Program-made: the position numbers and the translations under genes
Source: Sulfurihydrogenibium sp. YO3AOP1
GTDB taxonomy: Bacteria > Aquificota > Aquificia > Aquificales > Hydrogenothermaceae
Assembly: GCF_000020325.1 (NCBI RefSeq)
Contig: NC_010730.1
Coordinates: 670,001-734,000, forward strand
Length of the DNA: 64,000 nucleotides
Reading direction: 5' to 3'
The notes under the pieces: model-generated
Database searches by the model: none
The model's input: the letters and a program-made list of their open reading frames with translations, nothing else
Told to the model about the DNA's origin: nothing
In this document: in pieces, positions 2,296-8,459 of the stretch
How the letters are laid out: the number at the start of each line of letters is the position of its first letter
How positions within the stretch are numbered: position 1 is the first letter of the stretch

Positions 2296-2325
2296 TTGAC
2301 AAATCTACATCTAATAATCTAAAAT
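2296..2325 (+). promoter_or_regulatory. sigma-70-type promoter of the CalpL/Cmr operon
   Basis: TTGACA at 2296-2301 and TAAAAT at 2320-2325, spacing 18. Transcription would start near 2332. This puts the in-frame TTG at 2292 upstream of the transcript and supports the GTG at 2358 as the first start codon. Confidence 0.6.
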
Positions 2326-2357: not shown

Positions 2358-2837
2358 GTGTTTAGATTTTTTGATCTTTTTAACGAAGACCAAAAAGAAA
2401 AGCTTGTTCAGTATAAATCATTTCATTCAGGTGATTTCCTAATTGTCAGAGTAAAAGAATTCTACCAAAAAAGCAATATTCCCTTAACTACAGACATTGA
2501 TAATGTATGCCCTTTAAAACAAAGACCAATTATAATCATAAGAGACAACAACGGAACTATTTCTTTTGTTGCTACATCTACTAATATATTGTTTAAGCAT
2601 AAACGACCAAAGATAAATCTATCAAAATGCTTCTTCCAAAAAAGAACAAAAGAAGAATGTTTAGACCTAGACATAAAAGATGAAGTATTTTTATTCACAA
2701 AAGATGGCATTTCTTTTGATTTCTATGTAGATAGGCAAGTGTTAATAGACTTTTACAAAGAAGGCAAACTTAGAAAGTGCGGAAACTGTTCAATGATATT
2801 GCCGCTAATAGAAAAATACATAGATGGAGCAGGATAA
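2358..2837 (+). CDS. uncharacterised MazF/PemK-like protein, first gene of the CalpL operon
   Basis: A 159-residue protein I do not recognise by name. The stretch SGDFLIVRVKEF followed by LKQRPIIIIRDNNGTISFV resembles the N-terminal part of MazF/PemK (GD..LV..F....KxRP.(V/I)(V/I)I), so a MazF-like fold is plausible; I infer no RNase activity. A CGNC pair lies near the C-terminus. The frame is open back to a TTG at 2292, but the GTG at 2358 has GGGATGGGG upstream and lies after the promoter. Its stop overlaps the ATG of the sigma-factor gene by one base (TAATG), so the two are translationally coupled. Position suggests a role with CalpS/CalpT. Cytoplasmic; no signal or membrane segment. Confidence 0.7.
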   Translation: MFRFFDLFNEDQKEKLVQYKSFHSGDFLIVRVKEFYQKSNIPLTTDIDNVCPLKQRPIIIIRDNNGTISFVATSTNILFKHKRPKINLSKCFFQKRTKEECLDLDIKDEVFLFTKDGISFDFYVDRQVLIDFYKEGKLRKCGNCSMILPLIEKYIDGAG

Positions 2838-3511
2838 TGTCAGGAAATGATTTAATCTTTAATTTTTTTTCAGAAAACGACCCAAAAGGCTTAGAAGTTA
2901 TAAAAAATATTTTTTTCAAAATCATCAGCAGTCCTACCTATCAACTCATACTTAATTACTACGATAAAGAAGATGTATTTCAAGAATTCTTAGCGACCAA
3001 AATCTTGCCACATAGAAATCACATAGTAGATAAGTTTTTTGAGCAACAAAGCGGATTGGTTAGCTACATTCAAAGAATGACAAAAAACTTTTTAGCCGAT
3101 GTTTACGCATCGGTCAAATTGATGTCAGAAAACGAAATATCTGAAGTTATTATTAGTAAAGAGGAAGATGATGAAGATGAAGTTAAAAGTTATTTTGACC
3201 TAATTGGAAAGAGAGAAAATTATACTCTAAGCATAGAAGTTGAAGAGCTAAAAATAGCTTTTACAAAGCGTCTGTCAGACAACGAGATGTTAATGTTTTG
3301 CTATCAAATATCTGATAGTAAAGAACTTTATAAAAGTAAGTATTTTAATGACCTATCCGACGATGCATTGTATAAAAGAGTAGAAAGAATGAAAACAAAA
3401 ATAAAAGAAATTTTAAAAGAATATTCATTTTCAGCAGAAGCTTTTGAAAAGTTTTTAAAAGAACAATCTTATGAAATTTGTAAAAAATTTGAGGTAAATA
3501 GCAATGGCTAA
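2837..3511 (+). CDS. calpS: CalpS-like ECF-type sigma factor
   Basis: A 224-residue protein. Its first half (YYDKEDVFQEFLATKIL through SYIQRMTKNFLADVYA) looks like sigma region 2. An acidic linker (KEEDDEDEVK) follows, and then a helical segment with ALYKRVERMKTKIKEIL that fits region 4. In the published CalpL system the sigma factor CalpS is held by CalpT and freed when CalpL cuts CalpT; the gene order here (sigma, MazF-like, SAVED-Lon) is the same. Start chosen at the ATG at 2837, with GGAG upstream and one-base overlap with the preceding stop; a longer frame to 2777 lies inside the previous gene. Sequence alone would give only a weak sigma-factor match; context makes the call strong. Confidence 0.85.
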   Translation: MSGNDLIFNFFSENDPKGLEVIKNIFFKIISSPTYQLILNYYDKEDVFQEFLATKILPHRNHIVDKFFEQQSGLVSYIQRMTKNFLADVYASVKLMSENEISEVIISKEEDDEDEVKSYFDLIGKRENYTLSIEVEELKIAFTKRLSDNEMLMFCYQISDSKELYKSKYFNDLSDDALYKRVERMKTKIKEILKEYSFSAEAFEKFLKEQSYEICKKFEVNSNG

Positions 3512-4319
3512 GTGGTTAAAAGATCTTTATAATGAATATATAGAAGAAGAGTTGGAAGAAGACTTAACCTCTCACATCTCACGTTCAACGTTTCCAGTAA
3601 TAGGTGGAGTATACTTTGGAAGCTTAAAATCTTTAAATAAAGAAAAACCAAACAAACCTTTATATTTCTTAGTATTAAGGAAAATAGATAATAATTTGTA
3701 CGAAATTATGAAGGTTTCAGATTGGCATCATTTTGCATCTAATACAGAAATATTTATAGAATTGCCAACAATGACTTTAATAATAGAAACTACAAATAAT
3801 TTTTATTTAACTTCAGAAGAAATATCTAAATTCATATTAATAGACATATTAAGCAAAGAAGATTTAACAAACATACTAAAATTCCGTCGTGGTCATGAAA
3901 TACCAGGACTAAAAAAAGGCTTTACTCCAATATTTGAAGATGATATCAGAAACAAATTTAAAAAAGAAGAGTTTAATCAAATAAAAGAATTCCACACAAG
4001 AATTTTTGAGATTTTGGCAGAGCCTGAAGAGCAAGTGATAGAAATAGCGCCCGAGAGAATTAGCGAATTTGTATTAAGACATGTTGCATCTACTTCACAA
4101 AAAGCTACATATACAGATGATTTTGTTTTATATCGTGGGGATGATTTTATAGAGATAATTATAGACGAGAAATATTTAAATAAAAAAGTAAAAATACTTT
4201 TAGACAACGATACTATTTTCAACGGCATCTTAAAAGATACAAGCATATTTATTCCTGTGAAAGAACAGATAGACCTAGAAGAACTTGCAAAACACATTAG
4301 TATTTTACCTGAGGGGTGA
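3504..4319 (+). CDS. calpT: CalpT-like MazF-homologous sigma partner, protease substrate
   Basis: A 271-residue soluble protein (about 32 kDa). Residues 34-75 (GGVYFGSL ... KPLYFLVLRKIDNNLYEIMKVSDW) fit a MazF-like beta barrel, as reported for CalpT. CalpT is cut by cA4-activated CalpL into about 23- and 10-kDa parts; I recall the cut between Ala195 and Ser196, and this sequence has RHVA-STSQK exactly there, in a loop-like stretch, giving fragments of 195 and 76 residues. The gene overlaps calpS by 8 bases and ends 3 bases before calpL. Odd: residues 22-30 (TSHISRSTF) are encoded by CTCACATCTCACGTTC, a copy of a repeat that is otherwise intergenic. Confidence 0.87.
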   Translation: MAKWLKDLYNEYIEEELEEDLTSHISRSTFPVIGGVYFGSLKSLNKEKPNKPLYFLVLRKIDNNLYEIMKVSDWHHFASNTEIFIELPTMTLIIETTNNFYLTSEEISKFILIDILSKEDLTNILKFRRGHEIPGLKKGFTPIFEDDIRNKFKKEEFNQIKEFHTRIFEILAEPEEQVIEIAPERISEFVLRHVASTSQKATYTDDFVLYRGDDFIEIIIDEKYLNKKVKILLDNDTIFNGILKDTSIFIPVKEQIDLEELAKHISILPEG

Positions 4320-4322
4320 TTT

Positions 4323-5813
4323 ATGCATATAAAACAGTTATTAAAAAACAAAAGGTTTGAAGTAATCAAAGCATTAGTAGAATCAAAGAAAATAAAACAA
4401 GAATGGTTAGAAGATTTATACTCTATACTTCTTAAGCAAGATACAGATGTTGAAATCACGCAAGCAAAATATGAGATAATAAAATTACTGCTAACAGAAA
4501 AGAAATATTTAAATTTTGAACTGCTTACCAAAACCCTAAACCTTGACCAGCAAACAGCCATAGAGATAATGAGAAATCCATTTAAAGAAGTATATTTCCC
4601 TACCTACAATATAGAAAACCCTGAAGAATCAAGATTAAATAAAGCATTAATAATACCTTTATCAAACCAAACTTTCACACTAAACACATTTGTTAATAGT
4701 CAAGATTTAGAAACTATAAAAGAAGCCACAAATAAAAACTTTTTTGTGATTTTTGACAACATTTTTAGCGGAAAATCTTACCAATTAGCCGTTGCAGCAG
4801 GTTTGATAGCAAAAGAAAAAGAAATTTTAGATAATGTTGCTTTTACAGGAGAAGTTTCATCAAATGGGTTTATAATACCGGTTAATCATTTAGAAGAAAA
4901 GAAGGAAATAACTGAAAAAGCTAAAAAAGTTTTAATAACTCCGGAAGACATAGAGAACTTAGAAGAGCTTAGCTTTTGGCTCAATCCAGAGCATTTGCCT
5001 GTAATATTTATACATATAAATAAACCAGAGTTAGCTTTACAATCTCTAAAACAAATGGAAGATGCAATCAAGAAAGATGAAAGATTTAAGTATTTCAAAT
5101 TAGAAAATCTAAAGAAATTCTACAGGTTGGAAGACCAAGATATGTATCTAATAACACCAAGTGTAGATTTTTCAAACAGAGAAGAGCTTATAAAAATTTT
5201 AAACGAGTTTAGAGAAAAAGTTAGTAAACTTTTGACATTAGAAGGGGTAATAAAAGATCACAATAAAGTAGTTCTAAATATCTCAGCGGGAATATCTACA
5301 TTGGCTTTGTATTTTGGCGTTATTCTTGGAAACAGACAGGCAAGCATAATTTATCATTATCAAAAAGAATATCACAAAGTTATAGACTTAACAGATAATC
5401 CAAGAAAGATAAAAGAGAAAAAGTCAGAATTTGAAAAAATTTCTGTTAATAAAAATATACAAGATCCGTTGATGATAATTATTTATCTTGCAAGCCATAA
5501 TCCGATAGAAAAAGGATTAGAGCTTAAAGAAAAGTTAAGAGCTAAAGGGGAGTTGATAATACAAAGTAAAGAGCATCAGGGCAATTTAGAGATTGGGGAT
5601 TGGAGCGATATTGTTTCTGAGATTTACACAGCAATAGATGATAATAAGCAAAAAGAAAACTATATGGTATTTTCAGCGCCTGTTGCAATAATGCTTGCTC
5701 TTGGTATGGCTCTTGGCTACTTTTTACCGATAAAAGTCTTTCACTATAACAGAGATGAATATATTGAAGTTCCTATAAAGTTAAATGAAGAGATTTTAAG
5801 AAGTCCATTTTAA
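4323..5813 (+). CDS. calpL: CalpL, SAVED-domain Lon protease
   Basis: A 496-residue effector of type III CRISPR. The middle (about 105-260) is a Lon-type protease domain: FDNIFSGKSYQLAVAAG contains Ser152 and TGEVSSNGFIIPVNHLEEKKE contains Lys193, the positions I recall as the published catalytic dyad. The C-terminal part (about 290-490, including NKVVLNISAGISTLALYFGV and the MVFSAPVAIMLALGMALGYF block) fits a SAVED domain, which binds cyclic tetra-adenylate. No AAA+ ATPase is present, unlike housekeeping Lon. Model: Cas10 makes cA4, CalpL oligomerises and cuts CalpT, releasing CalpS. It starts 3 bases after calpT (GGGGTG ribosome site) and is followed by cmr1. Confidence 0.95.
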   Translation: MHIKQLLKNKRFEVIKALVESKKIKQEWLEDLYSILLKQDTDVEITQAKYEIIKLLLTEKKYLNFELLTKTLNLDQQTAIEIMRNPFKEVYFPTYNIENPEESRLNKALIIPLSNQTFTLNTFVNSQDLETIKEATNKNFFVIFDNIFSGKSYQLAVAAGLIAKEKEILDNVAFTGEVSSNGFIIPVNHLEEKKEITEKAKKVLITPEDIENLEELSFWLNPEHLPVIFIHINKPELALQSLKQMEDAIKKDERFKYFKLENLKKFYRLEDQDMYLITPSVDFSNREELIKILNEFREKVSKLLTLEGVIKDHNKVVLNISAGISTLALYFGVILGNRQASIIYHYQKEYHKVIDLTDNPRKIKEKKSEFEKISVNKNIQDPLMIIIYLASHNPIEKGLELKEKLRAKGELIIQSKEHQGNLEIGDWSDIVSEIYTAIDDNKQKENYMVFSAPVAIMLALGMALGYFLPIKVFHYNRDEYIEVPIKLNEEILRSPF

Positions 5814-5838: not shown

Positions 5839-6735
5839 ATGGAGGAAGCTATTTTTAAAGTAGAAATCATAACTCCAACCATCATGGGCGGAGCAAATAG
5901 TGGAAAATTAGACTCTATTTTTATAAGACCAACAGAAATAAAATCTACAATGAGACAGGCTTTTAGATTAGTTGCCGGCAAGTATGTAAGGCACGATAAT
6001 GAAAGAGTTGAAGATTTATACAAATTAGAAAGCGAAGTTTTTGGTAATACAGAAGGAAAAGGAAAGTTTAGATTGATTGTTGATATTCCAAACAATCTAA
6101 AAACTGAAAAAATCAAATTACTTCCACATAAAAATGATTTTTCTAAACTTGCCATATTGCCAAACCAAACTTTTGATTTAAAAATCATTTCTTACAAATA
6201 TCCGGTAGAATTCTATAAAGCACTGATAAACATTGCTTTTCTGCTTGGAGTAGGACATAGAAGAAACAGACTATTTGGAAATATGCAGATAGAACAATTT
6301 AAATTACCGGATGAAGTAGGAAAAATTGATAAATTCTTTTTAGATGAAGGATATAAAGAAATAAAAACAGACAACCCTTTATTTGCTTGTTTTTCTAAAA
6401 GAGAAGATGGCGATAATAGAAATTTTTCAGTTTTTGGTATGCCTCTAAAAGATGAATATATACCAATAAATAAACAAAATTTTGAAAAAGCTTTAGAAAA
6501 TCTCTACGAAAAAGTAATCCATGGAATAAAAGGAGAAAAGTTAGACTTTATTCTTGGGGGAGTAAATCCAAGAAGACAAGCATCTTTCGTAAACTTTTCT
6601 ATTTTAAAAGTTGGTCAATCTTACAGATTGTTTGTTATTGGCTTTTATTACAAGAATGAAAAATTTAAATATAATGATTGGAAAAATGCAATAGAAAAAG
6701 CTAAAGAACTAACAGAAAAACTTTTAAAAAAATAA
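5839..6735 (+). CDS. cmr1: Cmr1, type III-B RAMP subunit
   Basis: A 298-residue Cas7-group RAMP of the Cmr effector, which sits at the head end of the complex near the 3' end of the crRNA. The N-terminus ITPTIMGGANSG ... IRPTEIKSTMRQAFRLVAG and LESEVFGNTEGKGKFRL are typical of Cmr1. A second RAMP-like half follows with GVGHRRNRLFGNMQI and FILGGVNPRRQASFVNF. AGAGAGAGG upstream serves as ribosome site, 26 bases after calpL; cmr2 follows 14 bases later. Part of one long operon. Confidence 0.93.
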   Translation: MEEAIFKVEIITPTIMGGANSGKLDSIFIRPTEIKSTMRQAFRLVAGKYVRHDNERVEDLYKLESEVFGNTEGKGKFRLIVDIPNNLKTEKIKLLPHKNDFSKLAILPNQTFDLKIISYKYPVEFYKALINIAFLLGVGHRRNRLFGNMQIEQFKLPDEVGKIDKFFLDEGYKEIKTDNPLFACFSKREDGDNRNFSVFGMPLKDEYIPINKQNFEKALENLYEKVIHGIKGEKLDFILGGVNPRRQASFVNFSILKVGQSYRLFVIGFYYKNEKFKYNDWKNAIEKAKELTEKLLKK

Positions 6736-6749
6736 GAGAGGGCTAAAAG

Positions 6750-8459
6750 ATGGCTAAGTATTTAGTAAAAATAACCATTCCATCTATACAAGATACAATT
6801 GTAAGGTCAAGAAAACTTAAAGATTTGACAGGTGGTAGTGAGCTTATTCCAAGGATTATGCAATCAGGATTAAAGTCTCTTGAAAATGATGACAAAGTAG
6901 AGTTTATAATTCCAACAGCTGATGTTGTAAAAGAAGATAGCCTAAACATAACAAACGTAGCATATCTTACAATAGAAGGAGAGAAAGAGCAGGTAATCGA
7001 AAAAGTTAAACGCATAAAAGAAGAAATGTTAAAAGAATTAAACACTCTTGAAGAAGCGGTTAGACGTAAAATTTCAGATAATGAAGAATTTAATAAGTAT
7101 AAAGATTTAATTGCCTATCAAATCAGAAATGCTATCAATATAGTTTGGGCTATTAGTGAGATTAAAGATAACGATATTGTAAAAGCAAAAAATGATGTAG
7201 ATATTGCAGTAGCTAATGCAAAATCATCAATAGAACCTGATGATAAATTTATTGAAGGATTTAATCTTTTTCAAAAGCAAAAGAATCAGTATTCAGCTTT
7301 TGAAAATTATCAAGATTTTATGGAAAAAGCATATCAAATCAATCCAGAGCTTATAAGAGGAGCTTATCTTTGTGATGTATGTGGAAAAAGAGTAATACTT
7401 GGAGCAACAAAAAATAACTTTAAAAGCTCAATCACAGAAAAAGATGAAGATGACAGACTCTGCGCATTTTGTTATGCAAAGAGACATTATCATGGAGAAC
7501 ATAAAAAATCCGTTGTTGATGTAGCTTTAAAAAAATATCTTGCAGAACATGAAAGTAGAATACAAGAAATCTTTAAAAATCATGGAAAAGCAGACTTATT
7601 TGAAAAAGACAAACAAAACATATACATAGAGGTATTGGAAAATAACAAAGAAGACCAAGCTTTGATTGAATCTTTAAAAAAATTATACAAAGAAATTGGC
7701 AAAAAACCACCTGTTTATTATGCCATCGTTGTAATGGATGGGGACTCAATGGGAGAAAAAATATCAAAAGCATTTGAAGAGAATAAGATTATAGATATAA
7801 CTGAAAAGTTATCAGAATTTAGTAAAGAGGTTAAAGGTATAGTAGAAAAATACTCCGGAATGGCTGTATACTCGGGTGGTGATGATGTTTTAGCATTGTT
7901 CCCGTTAGAAACGGCTCTAAAAGGATATATGGAAATAATAAGTCAATTTAAAGATAAATTTAAAGATATGAAAGATACAGAATATAACTTTACAGCAAGC
8001 GCAGGTTTGGTAATATCCCATTACAAAATACCTCTTAGCTATGTATTACAAGAAGCAAGGTCTGCAGAAAGCAAAGCTAAAAAAGTTGATGGAAAGGATG
8101 CAGTATGCATAAAATACATAAAACACTCGTTCTCATCAGCAGAAGCACCGATAAAAAACGATCATTTACAATTATTTAAAGAGCTAATAAGCTTTCTATC
8201 CGATGAAGATTTTCCGTTTGGTTTTATCTATCAACTGCAAGAGCTTTTACTTCCATACCTACCAAAAACAGAAGATGAAGAACCTGTTAAAGAGCTAACA
8301 AAATATCTAATTGATAAGAAGCCTTACAAGAGAAAAAAAGAGTTTATTGATTTTATGTTAAACGCCCACATTAATGATAAGAAGTTTTTTGACTTCAAAG
8401 AACCGGAAAAAATAATCAACACTTTAAAAGTAGCTAAATTTATAGCAAGTGGGGTGTAA
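6750..8459 (+). CDS. cmr2: Cas10/Cmr2, cyclic oligoadenylate synthase, no HD domain
   Basis: Large subunit of the type III-B complex, 569 residues. It begins directly with the first Palm-like domain (KITIPSIQDTIVRSRKLKDLTGGSELI). A zinc finger is formed by Cys208/Cys211 and Cys238/Cys241. The second Palm domain has VVMDGDSMG (about 328-335) and YSGGDDVLALFP with the intact GGDD at 376-379, needed for cyclase activity. The N-terminal HD nuclease domain found in many Cas10 proteins is absent, and the length is short for the family. So defence should rely on cOA signalling and target RNA cleavage by Cmr4, not on DNA cutting by Cas10. This fits two predicted cOA receptors in the same operon. Confidence 0.96.
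   Translation: MAKYLVKITIPSIQDTIVRSRKLKDLTGGSELIPRIMQSGLKSLENDDKVEFIIPTADVVKEDSLNITNVAYLTIEGEKEQVIEKVKRIKEEMLKELNTLEEAVRRKISDNEEFNKYKDLIAYQIRNAINIVWAISEIKDNDIVKAKNDVDIAVANAKSSIEPDDKFIEGFNLFQKQKNQYSAFENYQDFMEKAYQINPELIRGAYLCDVCGKRVILGATKNNFKSSITEKDEDDRLCAFCYAKRHYHGEHKKSVVDVALKKYLAEHESRIQEIFKNHGKADLFEKDKQNIYIEVLENNKEDQALIESLKKLYKEIGKKPPVYYAIVVMDGDSMGEKISKAFEENKIIDITEKLSEFSKEVKGIVEKYSGMAVYSGGDDVLALFPLETALKGYMEIISQFKDKFKDMKDTEYNFTASAGLVISHYKIPLSYVLQEARSAESKAKKVDGKDAVCIKYIKHSFSSAEAPIKNDHLQLFKELISFLSDEDFPFGFIYQLQELLLPYLPKTEDEEPVKELTKYLIDKKPYKRKKEFIDFMLNAHINDKKFFDFKEPEKIINTLKVAKFIASGV

Follow-up and report, generated by a model that had tools for sequence, protein, structure and literature searches.

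What does the gene at the head of the Calp operon encode, and does it belong to the Calp machinery? The Calp cascade (cA4, CalpL, CalpT and CalpS) is usually described as a three-protein system, and the literature searched yielded neither a paper that discusses this gene nor a description of the cascade's transcriptional output. The window analyzed here is a 64,000-nt stretch of the Sulfurihydrogenibium sp. YO3AOP1 genome, with the gene order C3a162–calpS–calpT–calpL, after which come a Cmr1-like RAMP gene and cas10/cmr2 (Table 1); C3a162 is the PADLOC-DB family name of the leading gene. The CalpT encoded here matches the crystallised CalpT10 fragment (PDB 8b0u) residue for residue, which identifies the operon as that of the published SsCalpL/T/S system.

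Table 1. Features of the Calp operon and its surroundings in the window.
Feature	Coordinates	Strand	Remarks
Sigma-70-like promoter, TTGACA-N18-TAAAAT	2296..2325	+	32 nt before the GTG start; consensus match only
C3a162 gene (159 aa); product has a MazF fold and four conserved cysteines	2358..2837	+	heads the Calp operon
K54-Q-R56-P57 motif of C3a162	2517..2528	+	homolog alignment and MazF profile alignment
S74 of C3a162, opposite the catalytic MazF Thr in the alignment	2577..2579	+	T in 42, S in 18 of 60 homologs
Cys91 of C3a162, first Cys of the putative zinc site	2628..2630	+	60/60 homologs
Cys101 of C3a162	2658..2660	+	58/60 homologs
Cys141-G-N-Cys144 of C3a162	2778..2789	+	each 59/60 homologs; one His at 141
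calpS, sigma factor	2837..3511	+	start codon shares 1 nt with the C3a162 stop
calpT, anti-sigma factor, MazF-like N-terminal part	3504..4319	+	residues 196-271 identical to CalpT10, PDB 8b0u
calpL, Lon-SAVED protease	4323..5813	+	family matches
RAMP-superfamily protein, Cmr1-like	5839..6735	+	RAMPs match; Cmr1 name taken from a relative in locus L205
Cas10/Cmr2	6750..8459	+	family match

The initial annotation described this gene as the first after the promoter, overlapping calpS by one base and carrying a MazF/PemK-like pattern. All of this is borne out in the window: the TAA stop of the open reading frame shares one base with the calpS ATG at position 2837, and the pattern reads SGDFLIVRV ... 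PLKQRPIIIIRD. Across the family the pattern holds in part, since K/R-x-R-P and the later S/T persist and the G-D part is family-specific, G25 being nearly invariant only among 15 Hydrogenothermaceae-type sequences. An alternative in-frame TTG lies upstream at 2292 and would give 181 aa; GTG at 2358 appears to be the better start because of the promoter at 2296–2325. That promoter agrees with 11 of 12 consensus positions and is to be read as a consensus match only, the scan having returned 4 promoter-like sites against 2.7 expected. C3a162 is a real gene, beyond chance, because 56 of the 136 Aquificota genomes have a homolog, at the same position and with an invariant R and P, which are retained among homologs whose pairwise identities are as low as 11–25%.

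The protein matches PADLOC-DB family C3a162 (PDLC01080) over its full length (E = 4.3e-58, residues 2–159), a family labelled 'unknown function' whose model misses divergent Aquificota homologs found here. Searches of Pfam, NCBIfam and PDB sequences gave no convincing match. PF02452 (MazF/PemK) matched neither the protein nor any sequence in the window genome, and it was absent from the top families of 15 homologs. The family name is thus pre-existing, and the fold assignment presented below is new here. Weak thioredoxin matches (E 0.01–0.14) arose from the CGNC stretch only, and the structure model is not thioredoxin-like, so that this identity was rejected. A match in genome G010 (E 9.6e-4) was dismissed as chance, being an unrelated 385-aa ORF with no Calp gene nearby. 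The existing PADLOC family, the near-invariant four-cysteine set and an attachment to calpS, as opposed to calpL itself, are points that the initial annotation did not contain.

We then assessed the distribution of the gene in one phylum, the Aquificota, in which Calp loci were annotated with profiles. C3a162 lies directly upstream of calpS in 57 of the 59 loci that carry calpS; the sequence of one further locus (L147) begins 129 nt before calpS and was left out, giving 57 of 58 informative loci, and in the remaining one (L137) calpS is present and C3a162 truly absent. The order C3a162, calpS, calpT, calpL was found in every case. A calpS-frame start codon falls within 32 nt of the C3a162 stop in 57/57 loci and overlaps it in 44/57, these gaps being measured to the nearest start codon, which favours small values. 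The CalpL loci that have upstream sequence and no calpS (L079, L087, L102) also lack C3a162, which ties the gene to the sigma factor, and the only isolated copy is a truncated gene (L140). Where the initial annotation had considered that the gene might be missing from most calpL loci, we found co-occurrence almost without exception. Direct placement before calpS in 57/58 loci, together with co-absence with calpS, therefore marks C3a162 as a core, sigma-linked fourth component of the Calp operon in Aquificota. Beyond these loci, a genome-wide pattern scan with CalpL gave matches in Aquificota only, CalpL scans of plasmids and viral contigs found nothing, and neither did a C3a162 scan of phages.

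Several variations on this arrangement were observed. One Aquificaceae genus carries a tandem C3a162 duplicate (L091:5403–6340, L107:5159–6096, L141, L144), and in four loci (L025, L027, L029, L030) the C3a162 protein has an N-terminal extension of about 60–70 aa that is apparently coiled-coil. CRISPR repeat-like units stop just before the Calp operon, upstream of C3a162, in L018, L021, L022, L024 and L072, and calpS occurs as two separate ORFs in L094:6647–7314. A CalpL variant of 560–593 aa (L131:3952–5643, L132, L133, L135–L138, L147) combines the Lon part with a weak, partial SAVED match; the C-terminus of the L131 protein bears a STIV_B116-like domain (PF08960) overlapping a Csx16 model, an arrangement suggestive of a protease that carries its own ring nuclease. 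C3a162 is retained in most of the loci with this variant.

An AlphaFold2 model of C3a162 built from 15 sequences was confident (pLDDT 85, pTM 0.81), and its best two structure matches in the PDB by Foldseek were E. coli MazF (probability 0.97, TM-score to target 0.60) and M. tuberculosis MazF-mt3 (probability 0.85, TM-score to target 0.56). In a viral structure library the best matches were PemK-like and MazF proteins. Because the Foldseek E-values were weak (best 0.061 in the PDB and 0.0039 in the viral library), an independent profile comparison was sought. The profile of 60 C3a162 sequences scored 25.65 against that of 20 Aquificota MazF proteins, and the maximum over 200 column shuffles was 14.5. 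The resulting alignment places the C3a162 K-x-R-P on the R-P strand of MazF, R56 on the catalytic Arg and S/T74 on the catalytic Thr. The MazF-like fold proposed in the initial annotation is thus upheld by both approaches; an unrelated fold was considered, and the fold found is MazF-like.

The active site is retained in part. R56, P57 and S/T74 are each present in 60 of 60 distinct C3a162 homologs, even though identity drops below 20% among them. Five residues before the catalytic Arg, 19 of 20 Aquificota MazF proteins have a Glu (E24 in E. coli MazF), and C3a162 homologs are acidic there in 12%. In B. subtilis MazF the active residues are R25 and T48, and the Glu is required for toxicity in some MazFs (PMC8160871). 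The Arg-to-Thr spacing is 17–18 residues in C3a162 versus 22–23 in MazF. Taken together, C3a162 combines a MazF fold with a partly conserved MazF active site and is not a standard member of that family. Its four near-invariant cysteines (Table 1) suggest a structural metal, probably zinc, at a site that MazF does not possess.

The suggestion that the operon holds two related proteins was examined through CalpT. Its model matched MazF and CcdB structures with a probability near 1.0, the fold lying in the N-terminal part, which independently supports the MazF-like nature claimed for CalpT and agrees with the published description (PMC9704534). Relatedness stands at the level of the MazF/CcdB superfamily and no closer, because the C3a162 and CalpT profiles showed no mutual similarity when compared; direct homology of the two was discarded for that reason. 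CalpT resembles C3a162 in this fold and differs in having neither the RP arginine nor the cysteines, in being the CalpL substrate and in showing no detectable sequence relation. With CalpT MazF-like, its RP motif lost and profile similarity lacking, the operon carries two proteins of MazF fold that did not arise by recent duplication. That the RP motif is kept in C3a162 and lost in an anti-sigma factor of the same fold suggests a retained active-site function.

An ECF-like element, GTCAGA-N16-CGTTWA, came up incidentally. There are about 104 copies of it in the 136 Aquificota genomes (G028, G017, G007 and G135 among them), versus about 17 of the reversed control pattern, and none in the window genome. 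The element usually lies 20–40 nt before a start codon that has a ribosome-binding site. In loci of several families it sits at the calpS end, 20–35 nt before the calpT start (for example L010), and it is also found before cas6 (L150), cas2 (L025), csm2 (L029), cas10 (L189, L227), cmr1 (L205) and cmr4 (L228); because nearness to cas genes was part of how these loci were picked, this link to cas genes does not amount to a formal statistic. The calpT signal could partly reflect conserved CalpS codons (SEICxxFR-stop), although loci L100 and L104 have similar DNA at this point with a different protein reading. In divergent arrangements the element points away from C3a162. An AACG-N18-TGAC sequence upstream of C3a162 was rejected as an ECF promoter of its own: it is the reverse complement of GTCAGA-N16-CGTTWA and faces the divergent gene. 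These patterns suggest that the element is a candidate CalpS promoter and that calpT and several cas genes may form a CalpS regulon, which gives a direct hypothesis, namely that CalpS switches on the CRISPR machinery itself. By eye, L025 and L071 have a small basic ORF (about 40 aa) divergent to C3a162, behind the candidate element and with a good ribosome-binding site.

We favour the reading that C3a162 is an RNA-directed partner of the CalpS–CalpT complex. At a probability of roughly 0.45, it would be a fourth core component of Calp: a CalpS-dedicated, MazF/CcdB-derived protein with a four-cysteine zinc site, directed at RNA and controlled by CalpT cleavage. Translation of C3a162 would be coupled to that of CalpS, and the protein most likely becomes part of the CalpS–CalpT assembly, where it would add an RNA-directed activity, either cleavage or tight binding, through its retained Arg–Thr/Ser pair. 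The resting complex may keep this activity silent until cA4-activated CalpL cuts CalpT and makes it available. Coupling to calpS, loss together with calpS, retention of the Arg–Thr/Ser pair and the parallel with type III-E systems are what lead us to this proposal. Against it stand the lack of a PF02452 match, the R-5 Glu that is not conserved, the weak Foldseek E-values and the published CalpL/T/S complex, which was described without C3a162 (PMC11417357) and from which it follows that C3a162 is dispensable for CalpL/T/S assembly.

The main rival takes C3a162 to be a catalytically dead, zinc-stabilised MazF-fold regulator. It would bind CalpS itself, or RNA polymerase carrying CalpS, and serve there as a chaperone, a co-activator or a second anti-sigma factor. 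Such a protein would show the strict linkage to calpS, the translational coupling and the joint loss observed here, and CalpT, in the same operon, demonstrates that a MazF fold can turn into a sigma binder. The invariance of the Arg and Thr/Ser active-site positions in 60 divergent homologs is, however, difficult to account for unless the protein acts on RNA or as a catalyst, and a CalpL/T/S complex described without C3a162 does not favour a sigma-binding regulator either. We consider this rival rather unlikely, and it stays alive through the missing Glu and that same published complex, from which C3a162 is absent (PMC11417357).

The MazF fold and the Arg–Thr pair would also suit a MazF-type toxin in its own right, one that shuts down infected cells and only shares a transcript with the sigma factor, CalpS/CalpT serving as its antitoxin; type III effectors often have toxin-like outputs (PMC11229360). 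No MazE-like gene adjoins C3a162, however; the MazF Glu is missing, its near-constant partner is calpS rather than diverse antitoxins, and ordinary MazF genes occur elsewhere in Aquificota. Nor does C3a162 look like an induced toxin, given that no candidate CalpS promoter lies ahead of it in the sense orientation. We judge a free toxin to be improbable. Far less plausible still is an unimportant leader gene or hitchhiker kept by close linkage: in its favour are the lack of a known function, the single calpS locus without C3a162 (L137) and the genome with nothing but a truncated copy (L140), but the gene is kept in 57/58 informative loci across several Aquificota families, has invariant residues and is duplicated in tandem in one genus.

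A fourth gene consistently attached to the sigma gene, with a MazF fold and an intact Arg–Thr/Ser pair, means that the reconstituted Calp system is probably incomplete. Since CalpT in the window is identical to the crystallised protein, the C3a162 of the organism already studied lies in the window, and the favoured role as an RNA-directed partner is directly testable.

Compared with known systems, C3a162 shares with MazF/PemK (PF02452) the fold, the K-x-R-P strand and a Thr/Ser at the active-site position. What sets it apart is that it lacks a PF02452 match and the conserved Glu at R-5, has a shorter Arg–Thr spacing and four conserved cysteines, and lies next to a sigma gene in place of an (AbrB-type) antitoxin. 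A parallel in context is offered by type III-E loci, which besides a sigma factor and its anti-sigma factor Csx30 carry Csx31, a conserved third protein reported in complex with the other two (PMC11106740, PMC10028731). In its context C3a162 resembles Csx31, a conserved extra protein beside a sigma factor and a protease-cleaved anti-sigma factor, and as an RNA-directed partner it may be comparable to Csx31. A stronger version, which we think has only a small chance of being right, is that type III CRISPR sigma pathways under protease control have a hidden third effector arm in common, with C3a162 of Calp and Csx31 of type III-E functionally equivalent and C3a162 being a zinc-containing, MazF-derived RNase that travels with the sigma complex and is turned on when the anti-sigma factor is cut; transcriptional reprogramming would then be coupled to RNA cleavage. 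On the transcriptional side, the candidate CalpS element before cas genes resembles the control of cas1 by CASP-sigma in type III-E (PMC10028731).
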